Source: Armatimonadota bacterium (GTDB lineage: Bacteria > Armatimonadota > Fimbriimonadia > Fimbriimonadales > Fimbriimonadaceae). Taken from it: a DNA stretch of 64,000 bases. Each line of letters opens with the position of its first letter. Position 1 is the first letter of the stretch. A program made the position numbers and the translations under genes. Below are positions 1 to 37,975 of the stretch, piece after piece. The stretch spans positions 221,238 to 285,237 of the forward strand of contig JAFDWQ010000003.1 of the NCBI GenBank assembly GCA_018268395.1, in the 5' to 3' direction. The notes below the pieces were generated by a model. The model had not been told where the DNA came from, ran no database searches, and worked only from the letters and a program-made list of their open reading frames with translations.

Positions 1-1742
1 CTCCACGGCGAGTACAGGGTTTCTTCCTCGCCGATCCGTTCGAGTGAACCCGGCACCATAAGGTCCACCGCCCAACGGTCGTCGCTACGGGCCACCGCTT
101 GAGGCAGGGCCGATACGTCGGGCCGGAACCGATGGACGTCCTCCCCCAGGTCGTGTCGTTCGAGGCAATAGACGAGGGGGCCCCGGAGCAATGCGGCTTT
201 GCCCGCGTCGTCCGCGACCGCACCGTGAGCTTGAAGCCAAGTGACGCCCATGCCGTAGTCGATGCGGACGTGCGATCCGGCCTCCAAAGCGAATTCCAGG
301 TACCGCCCTTTCCGGCTCGCGGCGCCTCCGGCGGTCGATACGGACGTGGCCCACTCTGGGACACGGATCCGGATCCGGCAGGCGGCGTCGGCCCGGACGT
401 GGACCTCGCCGTTCCACGGGTAGCCCGATTCGACCGTGACCGTTCCTCCCTGAACCTGGTACTCGGCCCCAAAGGGGAGGTCGATGACAAGGGCGCCGTC
501 GCCGGCGAAATACGCGGCGTAAGCTTGGACGGAGAGGACGGTCCGCGCGATGTTCGGCGGACAACACGCGCAGGAGAACCAGGGACGTCGAAGGTGGTGA
601 CCTCGGCTTTCGAGCGGGTTGACGTAAAAGTACCTGTCGGTCGTCAGACTGACTCCGCTGAGCGCGGCATTGTAGAGGGCGCGCTCCAGAGTGTCCGCGT
701 AGCCGGCGTCGCCTGTCGCCCGGCTCATGCGGGCTGCCCAGAAGACGAGCCCGATGGCGGCGCACGTCTCGGCGTACGCGTCAAGGTTTGGGAGGTCGTA
801 ATCGTCAGTAAAGCCCTCGTTGCGGCCGGCGCTGCCGATCCCGCCCGTCACATAGATGCGGCTCTTGACCAGGTTCGTCCAGACCTTTCGCAAGGCGGGC
901 ACGACGCCCGGATCGTCCCAGCAGTCGAGCGCTCCGCAATAGTAGTACATGGCTCGGACGGCGTGTCCGACGGGCCGGTCCTGATCGAGGAACGGTACAT
1001 GGTCTTGGAAGTACGTGCCGTCGTAGGCGCCCTCCGGAAACACCAGCGGCAGGTATCCCTTGTTCAATTCCGCGGCGATCGGGTCTGAAAACTCGTGTTC
1101 GAAGGAACTGGGGCGCGCACCCCTGGCCTGGATCATCTTAGCGCCAAGGCTCCGGTATGCCTCGTCGCCTGTAGCCTCGGTCAATCGGGCGAACGCGAGT
1201 TCGATCTCTTGGTGCCCGCACGCCCGCGGCGGAACCTGGTCGTCAAAGGTCTCGCGGACATGGTCGGCGGCCCGGCGTCCGATATCGAAGAGGCTCGAGA
1301 GGCCGGTCGCTTCTTTGTGAGCGACGGCGGCTTCGATCAGGTGACCGATACAGTAGAGCTCGTGCTTGGCCGTCAGGGCCTTCCACCGTTGTTCCAGCGC
1401 TCCGATCTGGAACGGCGTGCCGATGTAACCGTCCGCATTTTGGGCCTCGGCCACGGTGGCGATCGTCGCATCGACTTGGGCCTTGCCGCTCCAGTCGGGA
1501 TCGACGTTCAGGCCGTACGAAGCCGCTTCAAGCCACTTGTACACGTCGCTGTCGTTGAAGTAGAGGCCTTCGTGACCGGAACTGTCACCACGGGCCGCCC
1601 TCCGGAAGTTTTCGATCCTGCCCGTCTCTTCGCACTGACGCAGTTGATGGGGCAGCCCTGTCTCCAGAAACTGTCGTTGCCACTCCCGCCAAAACGGATC
1701 GGTCACTTTGGACCGGCGGAGGTCGACGCGCTTGCCCGGCAT
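1..1742 (-). CDS. GH127 (DUF1680) beta-L-arabinofuranosidase, 3' end cut by window
   Basis: Predicted glycoside hydrolase family 127 enzyme releasing beta-L-arabinofuranose from plant glycans. The reading frame is open from the ATG at 1742 to the window edge (580 codons seen; the family is about 600-650 aa), so the C-terminus is missing. The N-terminus has the family block SDVYKWLEAASYGL followed by AEAQNADGYIGTPF. The zinc and catalytic cysteine set is visible: E325 and C327 in AYAETCAAIG, and C393-C394 in SCACCPPN; by analogy with characterised GH127 enzymes C393 would be the nucleophile. No signal peptide is obvious. It follows the GNAT gene by 16 bp and has a TAGACT box 6 nt before its ATG, so it may be transcribed without a leader. 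Family assignment is firm; exact substrate is inferred. Confidence 0.88.
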   Translation of the reverse strand, partial: MPGKRVDLRRSKVTDPFWREWQRQFLETGLPHQLRQCEETGRIENFRRAARGDSSGHEGLYFNDSDVYKWLEAASYGLNVDPDWSGKAQVDATIATVAEAQNADGYIGTPFQIGALEQRWKALTAKHELYCIGHLIEAAVAHKEATGLSSLFDIGRRAADHVRETFDDQVPPRACGHQEIELAFARLTEATGDEAYRSLGAKMIQARGARPSSFEHEFSDPIAAELNKGYLPLVFPEGAYDGTYFQDHVPFLDQDRPVGHAVRAMYYYCGALDCWDDPGVVPALRKVWTNLVKSRIYVTGGIGSAGRNEGFTDDYDLPNLDAYAETCAAIGLVFWAARMSRATGDAGYADTLERALYNAALSGVSLTTDRYFYVNPLESRGHHLRRPWFSCACCPPNIARTVLSVQAYAAYFAGDGALVIDLPFGAEYQVQGGTVTVESGYPWNGEVHVRADAACRIRIRVPEWATSVSTAGGAASRKGRYLEFALEAGSHVRIDYGMGVTWLQAHGAVADDAGKAALLRGPLVYCLERHDLGEDVHRFRPDVSALPQAVARSDDRWAVDLMVPGSLERIGEEETLYSPW

Positions 1743-1748
1743 GCCCGG

Positions 1749-1754
1749 AGTCTA
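1749..1754 (-). promoter_or_regulatory. TAGACT -10-like box, leaderless type, GH127 gene
   Basis: TAGACT on the minus strand lies 6 nt before the ATG at 1742, and no Shine-Dalgarno sequence fits between them. It is one of a set of matching boxes in this window. Confidence 0.45.
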
Positions 1755-1758
1755 CTGT

Positions 1759-2709
1759 TCAACCGAGCGGCTTGGCCATCGACCGGTACCGACGCGTGAT
1801 CTGGAACCCGTGGCTCCCGTAGAACGCGTCCAAGGTCGTCCAATCGATGACCGTGCGGCGCGCCCCTGAGCGGGCCAGGAGTTCCAGTGCGCCGCCGAGT
1901 AGCGCGTCACCGAGCCCTCGTCCTCTTGCAGATCGGGCGATGCCGATCGGGCCCAAGGCGGCCCAACACGGCCCCAAGGACCGCCGCCATACGGCTCCAC
2001 CGACGGGACGCTTCGAGGCGGGGGTCTGGGTGAACGCGAACCCCTCGACTTCGCCGCCGACGGTCAAGAGCACGATGTCCTCGGGCTCTCCGTCGTCGAC
2101 CGCCTTTCGAAGCGTATCGTATCGCCATCTGCCCGGGAACGTGCGCTCCAAGAATCCGTCGAGGGAAGGGACATCGGCGTCCGCGCACCGGAAGATCCGG
2201 GCGTCCGACTTGATGACGGCCTCGTGACACCTCGAAGGCGAAAGGTATCCGCCAAGGTCTCGTTCCAGATCGAAGGCTTCTCCGCCTGCGACGAAGCCGA
2301 ATTCCTCAAGGAGGTCCTGGACGTACGCCGCCGTGACCGGTGCACCTGGTAACAGGTGGTCGGCGTCCATTCCGAAGACCACGGAGCGTGCCGTGGCGAG
2401 CACCGGATCGGCCAAGACCGCCGTCAAGGCCTCGCGGCCGTCCTCGACGGTCCGGAACGCCAGCGCCGAGAGGTGGAAGCGGTCCGGGTCTTGGCCGGGG
2501 AAGACGCGGGGGGTCGCCGGGCCCTTGAGAACGGCGAACGAACGGACTTCGCCTTGCCCGTCAAGGAGGACGGCGCTTGCGACGAGGAGAGGGTGTCCCG
2601 TCTGCTTGGAGACGATGTCCTCGGGTTCGACGGTCAGCGCCGCCCCGTAGGTCGTTTTCCAGAGATCGGCCAGGGCCTCTGGCGAAGCCGTCGAAAGGCC
2701 GAAGCTCAA
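1759..2709 (-). CDS. GNAT-family N-acetyltransferase, probable two-domain form
   Basis: About 316 aa. The C-terminal half carries a GNAT core: GPIGIARSARGRGLGDALLGG matches the acetyl-CoA loop (R-G-R-G-L-G), and it ends with the typical AFYGSHGF segment. The N-terminal half looks like a second, degenerate GNAT-like fold. The substrate cannot be told. Start is uncertain: a TTG at 2709 overlaps the stop of the upstream gene as TTGA and would couple translation; a GTG at 2739 in the same frame would overlap that gene by 34 bp. It is the third gene of a minus-strand run beginning with the DUF1844 gene and precedes the GH127 gene by 16 bp. Confidence 0.8.
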   Translation of the reverse strand: MSFGLSTASPEALADLWKTTYGAALTVEPEDIVSKQTGHPLLVASAVLLDGQGEVRSFAVLKGPATPRVFPGQDPDRFHLSALAFRTVEDGREALTAVLADPVLATARSVVFGMDADHLLPGAPVTAAYVQDLLEEFGFVAGGEAFDLERDLGGYLSPSRCHEAVIKSDARIFRCADADVPSLDGFLERTFPGRWRYDTLRKAVDDGEPEDIVLLTVGGEVEGFAFTQTPASKRPVGGAVWRRSLGPCWAALGPIGIARSARGRGLGDALLGGALELLARSGARRTVIDWTTLDAFYGSHGFQITRRYRSMAKPLG

Positions 2710-3050
2710 GCGATGGGGACCCTGGCTTCTTCGGCCCACTCGAACGCGGTCGTCATGTCGTCGAGGTCGCGGCGGATCGAGTTGGCGTCGCGGGACAAGA
2801 GCCTGGGAAGGTCGGGTGCCGACAAGATCCGCTCAAAGGGATCGCTGTGTTGGGTCGGGAACCGCCGGGGATCGTCCGAAGTCGTCCAGTACATGCCGAA
2901 GGCGCTCCGGACGAGCCCGTAATTGGCCTGCATCACGGCCCGGCACGTGCGGAACCGGGCGCACAGCGAGGGGTCTGGCCCGTAAGCGATAGCGTCGTTG
3001 ACGATCCGCCTCAGGTCAAGGTGGGCCTCACGGAAGTCGTGAAGGTTCAA
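2706..3050 (-). CDS. Hypothetical protein, 114 aa
   Basis: I do not recognise this protein. It is a mainly helical soluble sequence rich in Arg and Asp, without a signal peptide, membrane segment or metal motif. It starts MNLHDFREAHLDLRRIV and ends EWAEEARVPIA. Its ATG overlaps the stop of the DUF1844 gene by 4 bp, and its own stop touches the start of the GNAT gene, so it is almost certainly a real gene cotranscribed with both. Confidence 0.7.
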   Translation of the reverse strand: MNLHDFREAHLDLRRIVNDAIAYGPDPSLCARFRTCRAVMQANYGLVRSAFGMYWTTSDDPRRFPTQHSDPFERILSAPDLPRLLSRDANSIRRDLDDMTTAFEWAEEARVPIA

Positions 3051-3334
3051 CGACTGTGCTCCACAAAGTTGATCTGGAGGTCGCGGACGAGGTTCTGGAT
3101 CCGTCGTTTGTCTTCGCCGTCGAGTTGCCTTTCGAGGACTTGCGCCAAGCCTGTGACGGCATCGATCGCGGACTTCGCTTGAGCGACGTCCTTCTCGATC
3201 TTCCCTGTCATGAAGTCAGGTTGAAGGCCCATCTTCTGCCAGGCGACGGCCGACAGTTGTTCGAGCATGACGGCCAAAAGTTCGTGTACGTCGACCGGCT
3301 GTTCCGACGCCGGACCGGGCCCTGTCTCACTCAT
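3047..3334 (-). CDS. DUF1844 domain protein
   Basis: A 95 aa protein matching the short DUF1844 family: an N-terminal helical part (VHELLAVMLEQLSAVAWQKMG), then the family features KDVAQAKSAIDAVTGLAQVL and a closing RRIQNLVRDLQINFVE. The biochemical role of the family is unknown; it is widespread in Acidobacteria, Armatimonadota and similar phyla. I chose the second ATG (MSETG) because GAAGGA sits at the proper distance before it; the first ATG is two codons upstream at 3340. First gene of a four-gene minus-strand run, each overlapping or nearly touching the next. Confidence 0.82.
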   Translation of the reverse strand: MSETGPGPASEQPVDVHELLAVMLEQLSAVAWQKMGLQPDFMTGKIEKDVAQAKSAIDAVTGLAQVLERQLDGEDKRRIQNLVRDLQINFVEHSR

Positions 3335-3433
3335 TCCCATCCTTCAGACGACGACGACGACCCGAAGAGTGCATGAAGGCGTCTTAATATCCAGACCCTT
3401 CGGGGTTGGGCCGGAAAGAGCACAATCGTCACC

Positions 3434-4441
3434 ATGTTCGGAGTCGTCGTCGCTATCCCTCTGTTTGCGTTGGCCTACGGGTTCGGGCCCGGGACCAAGC
3501 TCACGTACGACGCCAACGTCACGTTCGAGGGGTTCCTTCCGTTGATGGGAGGGAACGAGGGCAAGGTCGACGTCAAGATGGCGGTCGCCGTCGCCGGTGC
3601 CGAGCCCGTCGAGGGATATCTCAAGTCGACGAGCGAGATCAAGGAGTTCGACGTTTCGTTCAACGATGCCAAGCTCCCGCTCGACCTCAGTAACGTCACC
3701 GAACTGTTCCCGAAGACGACGATCACGCTCGCCCCGACCGGTCGGATCGCCACGACCGACGCTCCCGACAAGAAACTCCCGGTCCGACTTCCGGGCTTGG
3801 ACGTCAAGCACTTCCCGGACGTCACGTACGTTCCGATCGAACTGCCGTCCCACCCAGAAGCCGGCGTCAAATGGACCTTCGCACGCGAGTTCGGTTCAGC
3901 CCCGATCGACTACGAATGCGAACTCGGCGAAAAGACCGGCGACCTTCAACGGGTCAAGGTGAAGCTCAAGCAGTCCTACCGGGATTTCGAAAGCAAGGCC
4001 TTAGAGACGGTAAAGGAGGAATCCGACGCCGAATGGGACGTGACGACGACGATGAACGGCGAAGGATGGGTCGATTTCGACACTGTCCGGGGCGCCGTCT
4101 CTCAGTTCGAGATCAAGAACACGGCGATCGGTCAGGCCAAGAATCTGAAAACGGGGAAGACGTCCGAACGCAAGTTGGTCACGAAGTACGTCATCAAGCT
4201 CCGTGAAGGCGCAGGCGTCGTCCGGAAGTCCGTCTCGCCCAATTCGGCCGAATGGTGGCGGAACGCCGTGGAAACCGGGAAGAACGCTTTAGCCTGGCTA
4301 AAGACGGCATCGTACTTCGGCCTTCAGTCGCTACCGAAGAACGTCGAGGCCTTGATCGGGCCCTTCCGGCAAGCTCTCGGCCGGTGGTTCCCCGTTACGG
4401 GAGGCACGGTTGTCCAAGTTCGTCCGGACGTTGCGCCGTAG
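3434..4441 (+). CDS. Secreted protein of unknown function
   Basis: A 335 aa protein with an N-terminal signal-like segment (MFGVVVAIPLFALAYGFGPG), after which the chain is a beta-rich soluble protein of alternating charged and hydrophobic residues with no transmembrane helix. I do not recognise a family. The layout (signal, then repeated strands such as KLTYDANVTFEG and KTTITLAPTGRIATTD) resembles exported proteins of the kind that carry one or two beta-sandwich domains. The last 111 bp overlap the 3' end of queG on the other strand. A CACAAT box lies 7 nt before the ATG. Confidence 0.72.
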   Translation: MFGVVVAIPLFALAYGFGPGTKLTYDANVTFEGFLPLMGGNEGKVDVKMAVAVAGAEPVEGYLKSTSEIKEFDVSFNDAKLPLDLSNVTELFPKTTITLAPTGRIATTDAPDKKLPVRLPGLDVKHFPDVTYVPIELPSHPEAGVKWTFAREFGSAPIDYECELGEKTGDLQRVKVKLKQSYRDFESKALETVKEESDAEWDVTTTMNGEGWVDFDTVRGAVSQFEIKNTAIGQAKNLKTGKTSERKLVTKYVIKLREGAGVVRKSVSPNSAEWWRNAVETGKNALAWLKTASYFGLQSLPKNVEALIGPFRQALGRWFPVTGGTVVQVRPDVAP

Positions 4442-33698: not shown

Positions 33699-35025
33699 AC
33701 TTTTGCGTCCTCGGTCGACCGAGCCTGGCCCGGATCAAGGCGTAACCCAAGACGCCCGAGACCATCGACGCTGCCAGGACGGCGGCTTTGGCTGTCTCGA
33801 GCCTTGCGGGGTCCGGGAAGGCGAGCCCGCTGATGAAGACCGCCATCGTGAAGCCGATGCCGCCGAGAAACCCCGCACCGATGAGGTGTCGGGGCAAGAC
33901 GCCATCGGGCCATGAGGCGAGTCCCGCCTTCAGGACGACGAACGAAAAACCGACGATGCCGAGCGGTTTGCCGACGATGAGGCCGAGCGCGATCCCGACA
34001 GCCATCGGGTCCGTCGGTAGTTTGGACAGAGAGGCACCGTCGACGGGAATTCCGCTATTGGCGAAGGCGAAGACAGGGACGATCAGGAACGCCACCCAAG
34101 GATGGGCGCCGTGGATGAGGCGTTGGAGAGGCGACGTGACACGTTCGATGGACCGCTCGAGGGAGTGGAGCCTGGCTTGTTGGTCTTCGCTCAAGCTTCG
34201 CGAGCCTTCCGGAGCCTCCTCAAAACCGTCGAGGTTGGTCAGGGCCCGTTCACGGAACGCCCGTGCATCGATGCGTGAGGCTGCGGGGACGGTAAAGGCG
34301 GTCAGGATCCCCGCGACCGTAGAATGGACGCCGCTGTGGTGCATGAACCACCACATCACGGCTCCGCCAGCCAGATAAACGAGCAGGTTCCTCACACCGA
34401 GCACGTTCGCAACGATCAACCCGCCGAAGACCAGCAGGCTTCCCGTCAACATTTGGACATCAAGGCCGTGCGAATACGTGAACGCGATGACGCCCACGGC
34501 GCCGATGTCGTCGACGATGGCCAGGGCGGCCAAAAAGACTTTCAGCCCGTACGGCGCACGCCTTCCCAACAGTGCAAGGACCCCAAGGGCGAACGCGATA
34601 TCGGTCGCCATGGGAACGCCCCACCCGGCCGCTGCCGGGCCTGCCGGGTTCAAAATCCTGTACAACAGGGCCGGAACGACCATTCCTCCCAGGGCGGCCA
34701 CGAACGGAAGGACGGCCTGTTTCGGACTCGAGAGTTCGCCGCTGACCAATTCGCGTTTGATCTCGAGACCGACGACCAGGAAAAAGACGGCCATCAGACC
34801 GTCGTTGACAAGGCCGTGGACGTCGAGCGCGTCCCGGAAACGGCCGAAGACCACCGAGACGTCTTGGGCGAGCCAGGATTCGACGGTAGAGCGGAGTTCG
34901 GTGTTCGCGACGATCAGGGCGGCCACGGTTGCGGCGAAGAGGACGATGCCGCCGCTGGCCTCCCGGGAGGCGAACTCCTGGAACGGCCTCATCACGAGTT
35001 CGATCGGCGTGCGTCGGGTCTTCAT
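33694..35025 (-). CDS. nhaA: Na+/H+ antiporter NhaA
   Basis: A 443 aa membrane antiporter exporting sodium in exchange for protons. The paired aspartates of the ion site are in ALAIVDDIGAVGVIAFT; MVVPALLYRILNP and DIAFALGVLALLG are also family blocks. A cytoplasmic loop of about 60 charged residues (DARAFRERALTNLDGFEEAPE...) between helices is longer than in E. coli NhaA (388 aa). The GLEIKRELVSGEL segment matches. It lies 51 bp after the second ClpS-like gene on the same strand. Confidence 0.94.
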   Translation of the reverse strand: MKTRRTPIELVMRPFQEFASREASGGIVLFAATVAALIVANTELRSTVESWLAQDVSVVFGRFRDALDVHGLVNDGLMAVFFLVVGLEIKRELVSGELSSPKQAVLPFVAALGGMVVPALLYRILNPAGPAAAGWGVPMATDIAFALGVLALLGRRAPYGLKVFLAALAIVDDIGAVGVIAFTYSHGLDVQMLTGSLLVFGGLIVANVLGVRNLLVYLAGGAVMWWFMHHSGVHSTVAGILTAFTVPAASRIDARAFRERALTNLDGFEEAPEGSRSLSEDQQARLHSLERSIERVTSPLQRLIHGAHPWVAFLIVPVFAFANSGIPVDGASLSKLPTDPMAVGIALGLIVGKPLGIVGFSFVVLKAGLASWPDGVLPRHLIGAGFLGGIGFTMAVFISGLAFPDPARLETAKAAVLAASMVSGVLGYALIRARLGRPRTQKS

Positions 35026-35076
35026 GTCCGGTACGGCCCGGTTGCGGGGTTCATCCTGGCCTCGTGGAGAGGACGC

Positions 35077-35397
35077 TTAGGCTTGGGGACTGACTTCGAC
35101 CGCGATCCCGATAGTGGTGATCACGTCGGCTGCGCCCCGGCATTCGTTCTCATCGGCACGGTGCACGATGCACGAACCGAAATGGTCGATCTCCCACGCT
35201 TCGATATAAGCCTCTTCCGCGTCGCAGGCGGTCGCGAACATCAAGACCGTGATGACTTCGTCGTACGTGTTGACATCGTTGTTGAAGACGGTCACCATCC
35301 AACCTTCGTCCTTTGCCGGATCGAGCTCTCGGTCCAGGTCTGGGAGCGACGCGGGGCTTGAAACGGCACGGGCCGGCAGGGTGGGAAGGTCAGTCAT
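35077..35397 (-). CDS. ClpS-like adaptor, second copy
   Basis: A 106 aa protein; residues about 33-102 form a ClpS-like core: MVTVFNNDVNTYDEVITVLM, then EEAYIEAWEIDHFG. ClpS hands N-degron proteins to ClpA/ClpC. Compared with E. coli, the pocket residues Asn34-Asp35-Asp36-Thr38 read N39-N40-D41-N43 and the pocket His66 reads D71, so substrate choice must differ. A non-conserved N-terminal extension of about 30 residues precedes the core. The ATG at 35397 overlaps the end of the first copy by 8 bp. Confidence 0.8.
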   Translation of the reverse strand: MTDLPTLPARAVSSPASLPDLDRELDPAKDEGWMVTVFNNDVNTYDEVITVLMFATACDAEEAYIEAWEIDHFGSCIVHRADENECRGAADVITTIGIAVEVSPQA

Positions 35398-35686
35398 CCC
35401 ACTCTTTCTTGACATCGGTCTTGACGCCGATCCGACCGATGATGGCGGCGACGGCTTGACACGCGGCTTCTCCTGCGAAGTGGACGGGAGCCTGACCGAA
35501 ATGGTGGGCTTCCCACGCCTCTGTATAGGCTTCCTCTGGGACACATCCGGTGGCCTCCATCAAGACGCGGACGACGTCCTCGAACGCGGTGTGGTCGTTG
35601 TTGTAGATGACGACCATGTAACGCCCGAACGCGGTCGGAGCTTCTTGTCCCAACGGGGACAAAACGGGTGTCGACGAGTTCCTCAC
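35390..35686 (-). CDS. ClpS-like adaptor, first copy
   Basis: A 98 aa protein with a ClpS-like core at about 22-92: MVVIYNNDHTAFEDVVRVLM and EEAYTEAWEAHHFGQAPVHFA. Pocket residues N29, D31, T33 and H61 match Asn34, Asp36, Thr38 and His66 of E. coli ClpS; Asp35 is replaced by Asn30 and Met40 by Phe35. Start is GTG with AGGTGA at a proper distance. It has its own TATAAT box and overlaps the second copy, so the two adaptors are made together. No clpA or clpC gene is in the window. Confidence 0.83.
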   Translation of the reverse strand: MRNSSTPVLSPLGQEAPTAFGRYMVVIYNNDHTAFEDVVRVLMEATGCVPEEAYTEAWEAHHFGQAPVHFAGEAACQAVAAIIGRIGVKTDVKKEWDD

Positions 35687-35709
35687 GTCACGTTCACCTG
35701 GAACTTCCT

Positions 35710-35715
35710 ATTATA
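35710..35715 (-). promoter_or_regulatory. TATAAT -10 box for the clpS-like pair, overlapping the YfhO gene stop
   Basis: A perfect TATAAT on the minus strand, 23 nt before the GTG start at 35686, overlapping the TAA stop of the upstream gene. Confidence 0.5.
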
Positions 35716-37975
35716 CGATACTCCCGTGGGCCTCTTGGCCGACGCCTGCCGGCTCGCTCGGACGCTTCCGTAAGCCGGCGGCAAGGAGTACGGCCGTCAC
35801 GAGCAGCCCGAACCCGCCGACCGTCGCCCCTGTCCGTAAGCCGGGAGGCGCATATCGGAACTCCACGGACGTCGCTCCTTCGGGAACCGAGACGTGGCGC
35901 CATGGACCCTCGGCCGTGATCGGGACGGGGCGCCCGTCGACGGTAGCCGACCAGCCCGGCATCGAGCGGTCCCTGACGGTCAACTCCGTCGGCCCAAGGA
36001 CTTCGACCGTCTGTCCTTCGGTCGTATCGCGCACGATCCGGGCTTGGCCGTCCGAGACGGTGACACGCCCCGGGCCAGGAAGCCCGTAGACGAAGTGACG
36101 ACCGTCTTGGCGGGGAACCGCCGACATTTGGGGCAACGGGCGGAGGGACCAGACTTCGGTCACGCCGGCTTCGGCAAGTCGGACGGGGTCGAAATCCGGC
36201 TTGACGAACATCATGTTGCCGTTCGCGGGCGGGGCCGGATCTTTGCCGGCATCGATCGCGCGCAAGGTCTCGAGGGTCGTCTTATCGAGCAGTGAATCGT
36301 AGCCGCCGACGTCGTAGAGGCGGGACGTCGTCGCGGTGTTCCCTGGCATCACGGCCCTGGCGGCCAGTAGCAGCTCCCAGTCCGCGTTCACGAAAGCCCG
36401 CCGCACCATGGGTTCTGGAGTCTTGGGCGGGGGTGGGGGCTTGCCCGTCGGGAGGCAGAACAACGGACCTGCGCACAGGCAGGACAAGACGCAAACGGGA
36501 GCAGCCCATTGCGGCCGGAACTTGATCAGGGCCAGGCCGGCACCTGCGAGAAGGACCGATAGCCCGGCAGGGACGGGAGAGACCAGGTCGAAGTTGACGA
36601 TGGCACCCAGCCCGTCGAAGCCGACGAGGTACGAGCCAAGGGTCCCGGCGGCCAGAAACGCGCCCGCGACCGAGGCGACGAAACCGATTCCCAGGCCGAC
36701 CAACGCCCGTGCGGGGAGGGAACGGTCGTCCTTTACGGGCCAAAGCGTCCCGGCCCAGACGGCCAGCCCGAGTACGGCGAGGACGGCGGCCCTTCCTGGG
36801 CTACCTGTCGCCGACCAGCCTGGCAAGACCCAGTACAGCAGGACCGAGAGCGGCCCAAGGGCTAGAAGGAGGCCGACGAGGGCGACCGCGAGGGGGCCCG
36901 CCTGTCTGCGGGCCTTACCCTTTCTCTGGAGGAACAACAAGGCGAAAGCGACGGGCCCGAGCGAGAGGGCCGATTCCGCCATGGCGGCACCGCGTTTGAC
37001 ATACGCGGGCCAGTAGCTCGGGAACACCGTGCCACCCGGTTCGGGCCGCCATCCGTTGCCTGGAAGTCCGGTCACGGACGCGACCACGAAGCCAAGCAGC
37101 TCAGGGGGCCGCAATGCGGCCGAAGCATAGGCCGCTGCCCCTTCTGGGCTGGGGCCGACCTGACGGTGGCTCTGTTTGGAGAATTCGAGCGCGGGCAAGA
37201 CCTGGGGCATGGCCATCATCGCCCCGAGAAAGGCCGCACCGACGGCCGCGCCCCAAACGGTCGCTCGCGACCGGTGTTGGACGAGGATCACGCCACTGAA
37301 AACGACGAGACCGATCAGACCGTAGGCGGCGAACTGAAGATGTCCGCCCAAGAGCATCATGGCCGTGCTCAGGGCCAGACACGCCGTCCAAGCAGCCTTC
37401 CGGTCCGAACCGGCGAGCCGTTTCGCACAGAAGAGGCACCAGGGGATCCACGAACACGTCGTCACGACGCTGGCGAGGGGCGACCAGGCGACCAAGAAGG
37501 CCGAGAGGCCGAACACGACGCCGGCGATAAGTGCGCCCTCTTCGTTCGCGCCGCACACCTTCGCAAGGGCCCTCGCGCCGAGACCGGCCCAGGCCAAGTG
37601 GAACCAGGCGAGGAGCGCGATACCGAGAACGGTCGGCACGTGCAAGACACCGACGAGGACGTGGAGCGGATAGAACCCCGCGCTCTGAGAATTGGCCAAC
37701 AACGGTGTGCCGCACAACTGGTAGGGGTTCCAGAGCGGCAAGTGGCCCGTGCGCCACGACTCGAAAACGAGGTCGCGCCACGGATGGAACTGGAGGACTC
37801 CGTCGGCTTGGAGGACGTCCCAAGCCGAATCCGGTACGGGGCCGTTCCATGGCGCCATCTGAAGGATCTGGCCCCATGGGCCGACGGCTTCGCCGAAGAA
37901 CACCGCGCGCCATAGGACGCACAACGGAAGAAGCGCGAGCGCCAAAACGGCCCCGTGGCGGCGGACGAACGCCAT
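35711..37975 (-). CDS. YfhO-like polytopic membrane protein
   Basis: A 754 aa membrane protein of the YfhO type, with about 12 hydrophobic helices and a large C-terminal extracytoplasmic domain that ends in a final helix. The N-terminal region has the family pattern DGVLQFHPWRDLVFESWRTG followed by LPLWNPYQLCGTPLLANSQS. Members are thought to be GT-C-fold glycosyltransferases that decorate lipoteichoic acid or other envelope polymers using lipid-linked sugars. The ATG at 37975 has a TAAACT box 6 nt before it. Its stop is part of the TATAAT box of the ClpS pair. Confidence 0.85.
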   Translation of the reverse strand: MAFVRRHGAVLALALLPLCVLWRAVFFGEAVGPWGQILQMAPWNGPVPDSAWDVLQADGVLQFHPWRDLVFESWRTGHLPLWNPYQLCGTPLLANSQSAGFYPLHVLVGVLHVPTVLGIALLAWFHLAWAGLGARALAKVCGANEEGALIAGVVFGLSAFLVAWSPLASVVTTCSWIPWCLFCAKRLAGSDRKAAWTACLALSTAMMLLGGHLQFAAYGLIGLVVFSGVILVQHRSRATVWGAAVGAAFLGAMMAMPQVLPALEFSKQSHRQVGPSPEGAAAYASAALRPPELLGFVVASVTGLPGNGWRPEPGGTVFPSYWPAYVKRGAAMAESALSLGPVAFALLFLQRKGKARRQAGPLAVALVGLLLALGPLSVLLYWVLPGWSATGSPGRAAVLAVLGLAVWAGTLWPVKDDRSLPARALVGLGIGFVASVAGAFLAAGTLGSYLVGFDGLGAIVNFDLVSPVPAGLSVLLAGAGLALIKFRPQWAAPVCVLSCLCAGPLFCLPTGKPPPPPKTPEPMVRRAFVNADWELLLAARAVMPGNTATTSRLYDVGGYDSLLDKTTLETLRAIDAGKDPAPPANGNMMFVKPDFDPVRLAEAGVTEVWSLRPLPQMSAVPRQDGRHFVYGLPGPGRVTVSDGQARIVRDTTEGQTVEVLGPTELTVRDRSMPGWSATVDGRPVPITAEGPWRHVSVPEGATSVEFRYAPPGLRTGATVGGFGLLVTAVLLAAGLRKRPSEPAGVGQEAHGSIV

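Follow-up and report, generated by a model that had tools for sequence, protein, structure and literature searches.

Two ClpS-like genes lie in tandem on the minus strand of the window, by which we mean the whole analyzed stretch of 64,000 nucleotides from contig JAFDWQ010000003.1 of an Armatimonadota bacterium. The first, clpS-A (35390..35686, minus strand), begins with a GTG start codon and encodes a protein of 98 aa (hereafter A) with N29, D31, H61, gate residue F35, A57 and A60, and a C-terminal EWDD; the second, clpS-B (35077..35397, minus strand), begins with ATG and encodes a protein of 106 aa (hereafter B) with N39, N40, D41, N43, gate residue Y45, I70 and D71. The stop codon of clpS-A and the start codon of clpS-B fall in an overlap of 8 bp (35390..35397, minus strand), from which we infer that the two genes are translationally coupled. 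An earlier note on this DNA had described two overlapping ClpS genes with an 8-bp overlap; this is correct, and we can add the strand, which the note did not give. ClpS adaptors are small proteins that recognize the N-terminal residue of other proteins and target them for degradation. clpS-A and clpS-B are the sole ClpS genes of the 3.72-Mb genome (99.8% complete), and the two proteins of one locus have a mean core identity of about 45%.

Both proteins have a ClpS core, as the earlier note had proposed. They exceed the Pfam gathering cut-off of 23 bits for PF02617 (ClpS), with 40.4 bits for A and 37.4 bits for B, and their AlphaFold2 models, with a core pLDDT above 90, adopt the ClpS fold. On E. 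coli ClpS (2wa8_C, residues 26..106), the A model superposes with Z 13.6 and rmsd 1.1 Å over 75 residues (A 21..95), and the B model with Z 13.1 and rmsd 1.3 Å over 75 residues (B 31..105). The note had suggested a structural search; run with the two predicted models, Foldseek matched solved ClpS structures and placed neither protein outside the fold. The N-terminal arm, of low confidence in the models, is probably disordered. The NCBIfam ClpS equivalog models were failed by both, with best scores of 17.4 (A) and 20.9 bits (B) against cut-offs of at least 107. Each protein consists of the ClpS domain only, with no UBR box or ubiquitin ligase parts.

For the binding pocket, the residue register is backed by structural superposition and by an HMM alignment in which the A profile and E. 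coli ClpS match without gaps. In ungapped numbering, the residues at E. coli sites 34, 35, 36, 38 and 66 are N29, N30, D31, T33 and H61 in A, and N39, N40, D41, N43 and D71 in B; the residues quoted in the earlier note (N29, D31, T33 and H61 in A, N43 and D71 in B, and Asn at both Asp35 sites) are thus correct. According to the part of the source available and in part to general knowledge, sites 34, 36 and 66 grip the amino group of the ligand, and Met40 acts as the gate (PMC12493166). The canonical triad Asn34/Asp36/His66 is complete in A (N29, D31 and H61, the codon of the latter at 35504..35506, minus strand) and incomplete in B, in which N39 and D41 are kept and D71 (codon 35185..35187, minus strand) occupies the His66 site. 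Beyond the changes noted earlier, neither protein has the Met40 gatekeeper, for which A has F35 and B has Y45; both have Ala at the Met62 site; and at the Val65 site A has Ala and B has Ile. Lys84, which contacts ClpA in E. coli, corresponds to Val79 of A and Ala89 of B.

The pair had also been assigned a TATAAT promoter of its own, which we rejected. The hexamer (35710..35715, minus strand) runs into the stop codon of the gene upstream, and a scan of 34900-36000 turned up no sigma-70-like site; the whole window contains a single TATAAT, with 0.76 expected. The upstream gene (35711..37975, minus strand) encodes a YfhO-like membrane protein, ends 24 bp upstream of clpS-A and is a conserved neighbor: of 41 loci with the pair (see below), 29, including the window, have it upstream in the same orientation; two others have it in contact with the pair, one has it upstream but on the opposite strand, and the search did not find it in the remaining nine. 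Among 64 named pair loci, many of them from the same genomes, 47 have it in the same orientation as the pair, compared with none of 16 Chthonomonadales-type loci. Because of this conserved same-strand position, the pair is probably carried on the yfhO transcript rather than expressed from the TATAAT hexamer, with the YfhO-like gene as the probable operon head or co-transcribed partner. Neither nhaA, downstream, nor the aminotransferase gene, upstream, is a conserved neighbor at the pair loci.

The earlier note had proposed to examine conservation of the pair in related genomes. Among 61 genomes (this genome and 60 relatives), 60 have a ClpS match at E values up to 1, and 55 have one above the cut-off. 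A profile search of fetched stretches found the A-B tandem in 41 of the 61, this window included, which excludes chance as an explanation. These genomes belong to families f1, f3 and f5 of the order, and named records of the pair are from Armatimonadota, mostly Fimbriimonadaceae/Fimbriimonadales. Two records with Armatimonadota-type ClpS are titled Methanoregulaceae archaeon and Actinomycetota (L115 and L135), and are probably mislabelled metagenome bins. With start codons chosen by script, the genes overlap in 30 of the 41 pairs (by 13 bp in 16, 8 bp in 7, 4 bp in 3 and 1 bp in 1, while the remaining 3 are long-start choices with shorter alternatives) and do not overlap in 11. A Glu-Trp motif forms the C-terminal end of A in 39 of the 41 pairs; since these include 9 of the 11 non-overlapping pairs, this ending is no mere by-product of the start codon of clpS-B. 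Single-copy relatives exist, with an A-type gene only (G008 and G031) or a B-type gene only (G030). B is the better conserved copy, with a mean core identity between loci of 0.60, compared with 0.54 for A (71 pair loci). In two f5 genomes, A is degenerate in its pocket (L074, 812-1096) or frameshifted (L077, 4297-4542), and B is intact; these two A sequences were left out of the trees and of alignment A1. The ClpS pair is a real, ancient and conserved two-adaptor module of one Armatimonadota order.

The pockets of the two copies have kept distinct profiles across the 41 pairs. In A, site 34 is Asn in 37; site 35 is Asn in 34 and Asp in 6; site 36 is Asp in 30 and Glu in 6; site 38 is Asn in 22 and Thr in 18; site 40 is Phe in 18 and Tyr in 8; site 65 is Ala in 40; and site 66 is His in 34, Glu in 3, Asp in 2, and Gln and Gly in 1 each. 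In B, site 34 is Asn in 24 and Asp in 17; sites 35 and 38 are Asn in all 41; site 36 is Asp in 25 and Glu in 12; site 40 is Tyr in 29, Phe in 5 and Trp in 4; site 65 is Ile in 32 and Val in 9; and site 66 is Asp in 31 and His in 10. The earlier note had named a normal pocket in the second copy of relatives as evidence against its reading: His66 is indeed present in 10 of the 41 B proteins, but Thr38 or Asp35 in none. The picture is unchanged in a larger set of 72 A and 74 B proteins, in which site 65 is Ala in 71 of 72 A, whereas it is Ile or Val in all 74 B, and site 38 is Asn in all B and Thr in half of A. In both copies, Thr51, Trp63 and the Cys of sites 53 and 81 show little or no variation; the two Cys are invariant, and the human UBR1/UBR2 N-domains have them as well.

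The earlier note read the pair as a duplication in which copy 2 had changed. Diverged paralogs with different pockets, long kept together, agree with the first part of this claim, and a changed target set for one copy is plausible from the sequences; the choice of copy 2 as the changed one does not stand, given that B-type genes occur without a linked A gene at 16 Chthonomonadales-type loci and that, even if B-type proteins alone are counted, at least 14 changes between His and Asp have taken place at site 66. In a careful tree of 78 rows, from which long-branch rows were left out, A forms one clade (support 100/99.9). A quick tree of 203 rows, from which all L137 rows and near-identical named loci were left out, groups four single-copy relatives with the A clade and nests A, with weak support, among B-type and Chthonomonadales rows. 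A third tree includes the A-like L197, from another family, and has a well-supported 35-row side composed of A and outgroup rows, with B and most single rows on the opposite side. The latter two trees lean different ways on the timing of the A-B split, and an AU test on the 78-row tree, with the split placed before or after the separation of Chthonomonadales and Fimbriimonadales, rejected neither alternative (p 0.34 and 0.38).

Asp at site 66 recurs beyond the pair. Among 17 single B-type rows, nine have Asp66 and eight His66. A second ClpS match is found elsewhere in 12 of the 16 Chthonomonadales-type genomes with a B-type gene; the examples L178, L184, L185 and L190, assigned to genomes by contig places, have His66, and L197, also the second gene of such a genome, is A-like. 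Among the remaining rows of unlinked single ClpS from the phylum (O and F groups), 3 of 30 have Asp66; unlinked genes with this residue include L172, L179 and L181. Over a tree of 201 rows, site 66 has changed among His, Asp and other residues at least 26 times. On account of these changes and of the Asp in unlinked ClpS genes, we rejected Asp66 as a mark of the duplicated copy. Within 91 B-type rows, the combinations at sites 34 and 66 are N/D in 51, D/H in 23, D/D in 15 and N/H in 2, an association for which a naive Fisher test, inflated by relatedness, gives p 1e-9. On a tree built without columns 34 and 66, 300 random pairings give a median of 14 path-disjoint pairs that differ at site 66; site 34 shifts as expected in 9 of these 14 contrasts (range 7-10) and in the opposite direction in 0 (sign test p 0.004), with one contrast left on strongly supported branches of this weakly resolved 75-column tree. 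Plasmodium and Arabidopsis rows were left out of the covariation and wider-set analyses. It is therefore suggestive that sites 34 and 66 of B-type proteins vary together, pairing N34 with D66 or D34 with H66, as though an acidic residue were maintained close to the amino group of the ligand, a pattern that would fit retained binding of N-termini.

In comparison with the ClpS of E. coli and Caulobacter, fold, size and N-terminal arm are alike, and A keeps Asn34, Asp36 and His66. Unlike these proteins, A and B have Asn35, Ala or Thr in place of Met62, Trp63 and two invariant Cys, lack the Met40 gate and score far below the NCBIfam equivalog cut-offs, and neither His66 nor Thr38 is present in B. 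The N-domains of human UBR1 and UBR2 are closer to the A and B profiles than any solved bacterial ClpS, with E values of 7e-9 and 1e-7 for A (compared with 7e-4 for E. coli ClpS) and of 3e-7 and 1e-7 for B. These ClpS-like N-domains resemble the pair in having both Cys sites and, as in B, Asp at site 66; they differ in being domains of giant ubiquitin ligases and in having Asp35 and His38. Because UBR1 and UBR2, with their Asp66, are type-2 N-recognins, Asp66 should be compatible with N-degron reading. The same is argued by S. pombe Ubr11, whose N-domain is needed for type-2 recognition according to the available part of that work (PMC4447728). Among bacteria, the closest counterpart to B is ClpS1 of Leptospira interrogans, which, in the portion of the study available, likewise has Asp66, a Tyr gate at site 40 and no Lys84, is a second adaptor beside one with a canonical pocket, and binds ClpA and blocks ssrA-tag degradation; it differs in that clpS1 lies apart from clpS2, sites 34 and 38 are Asp and His, and ClpA is present (PMC12493166). 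Judged from these sequences, Asp66 is a recurrent N-recognin variant and not a new invention of B, as it also occurs in unlinked single ClpS, in Leptospira ClpS1 and in human UBR1/UBR2. In S. elongatus, ClpS1 and ClpS2 have different residue preferences and are both adaptors of one ClpC, an arrangement of two adaptors per ClpC like that considered here; a tandem overlap is not described in the accessible part of that paper (PMC7966870). In the open-access literature, the matches listed included no ClpS work on Armatimonadetes/Armatimonadota, Fimbriimonas or Chthonomonas, and, for tandem or paralogous clpS, the Leptospira study alone was recognizably on point. Precedents exist for the single substitutions and for the two-ClpS arrangement; the open-access literature searched appears to contain no description of a fixed tandem with overlap or of the 34/66 swap.

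The genome encodes the partners that a Clp-protease ClpS adaptor needs, a ClpC with N-domain and ClpP: it has one ClpP, one ClpC (834 aa), ClpB (870 aa) and one Aat. Aat makes Leu/Phe N-degrons, and an ATE_C-type transferase was found in none of the 61 genomes. By hand count, Aat is present in 36 of the 41 pair genomes, with none detected in the other 5, compared with 0 of 10 genomes with an f2-type single ClpS. Across the phylum (291 genomes), ClpS is present in 161 genomes and Aat in 132, of which 124 also have ClpS; this co-occurrence follows clades, and the genome counts are non-independent. One f2 genome (L067, G037:C36) differs from its f2 relatives, which have an odd single ClpS or none, and no Aat: it encodes Aat and a canonical ClpS of 109.6 bits, possibly acquired from elsewhere. 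In another genome of the same genus as ours (L082, G003:C5:473400-481600), a second ClpC-like gene (1454-3937, minus strand; 827 aa, two Clp_N domains) is preceded at a distance of 26 bp by a third, A-like clpS (3963-4286, minus strand).

We consider it somewhat more probable than an even chance that A and B are two ClpS-fold N-recognins with coupled translation and different residue preferences, which feed a single ClpC-ClpP machine. The two proteins would be made together, dock on ClpC and bind N-degrons downstream of Aat and endoproteases, and their different first-residue preferences would widen or split N-degron reading. In A, the amino-group site would be near-canonical and the pocket enlarged, and B would have an alternative site as in Leptospira ClpS1 and UBR1/UBR2, with Asp66, or His66 compensated by Asp34, together with an aromatic gate at site 40, Asn38 and Ile/Val65. 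This reading draws on the PF02617 membership and ClpS fold of a conserved and mostly overlapping pair (30/41); on the presence of only two ClpS, one ClpP, one ClpC and one Aat, with Aat-ClpS co-occurrence; on the A-like clpS next to a ClpC-like gene in G003; on the UBR1/UBR2 profile matches with Asp66 and the 34-66 covariation; and on the differing preferences of S. elongatus ClpS1 and ClpS2 (PMC7966870, as far as the available text goes). Counted against it are the loss of Lys84, the 5 of 41 pair genomes with no detected Aat, the NCBIfam scores far below cut-off, a covariation seen on a weakly resolved tree and an Aat co-occurrence bound to clades. More tentatively, at rather less than even chances, B could approximate a bacterial UBR1/UBR2 type-2 pocket, with an acid swapping between sites 34 and 66, and read residues that A does not; if true, this would amount to a two-channel N-degron code, with B reading, e.g., beta-branched N-terminal residues.

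Other readings of the pair deserve weighing. B may no longer read N-degrons, and instead compete with A for the ClpC N-domain, or partner A, so as to set the N-degron traffic of ClpC; the lack of His66 in 31 of 41 B proteins and Asp34 in 17 of 41 would suit this, as would an A:B ratio fixed by coupled translation, and Leptospira ClpS1, with Asp66 and Tyr40, offers a model in the effects on ClpA and ssrA-tag degradation reported in the available text (PMC12493166). We nevertheless hold it to be unlikely, since B is the more conserved copy, its sites 35 and 38 are invariant, its sites 34 and 66 covary, and type-2 N-recognins themselves carry Asp66. A similarly low probability attaches to A and B having the same or widely overlapping targets and being kept as a pair for dose or robustness: the fold and most pocket positions are kept by both, and single-copy relatives exist, but differences fixed over 72-74 loci at sites 65 and 38 argue otherwise.

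The two scenarios nearest to the earlier note fare worse. A relay, with one copy passing substrate to the other, draws on the overlap and the constant gene order only, and is very improbable given genomes with just A or just B. A recent duplication in this lineage, leaving copy 2 free to change, might be read from the tandem arrangement and from the A-B identity within a locus; we rejected it as scarcely credible, because the pair is conserved across families f1, f3 and f5, A is a single well-supported clade, and B-type proteins outside the order and Asp66 in unlinked genes place these features beyond the pair.

The pair bears on the N-degron code more widely: across a large and conserved group of proteins, Asp can take the place of His66, a residue often treated as essential in ClpS, with apparent compensation at site 34, which ties bacterial variants to the UBR1/UBR2 pocket and makes the range of variation in the bacterial code directly testable. 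Natural pockets with different preferences would also be of practical use, as engineered ClpS proteins already serve as N-terminal amino-acid binders for protein sequencing, according to the available part of the source (PMC12874005). In the window's own genome, a separate gene (G000:C7, L212 603-1469, minus strand) encodes a stand-alone protein of 289 aa with two Clp_N domains and no ATPase, which could bind ClpS adaptors without ClpC; ORFs of similar size are present in G009, G014 and G016.
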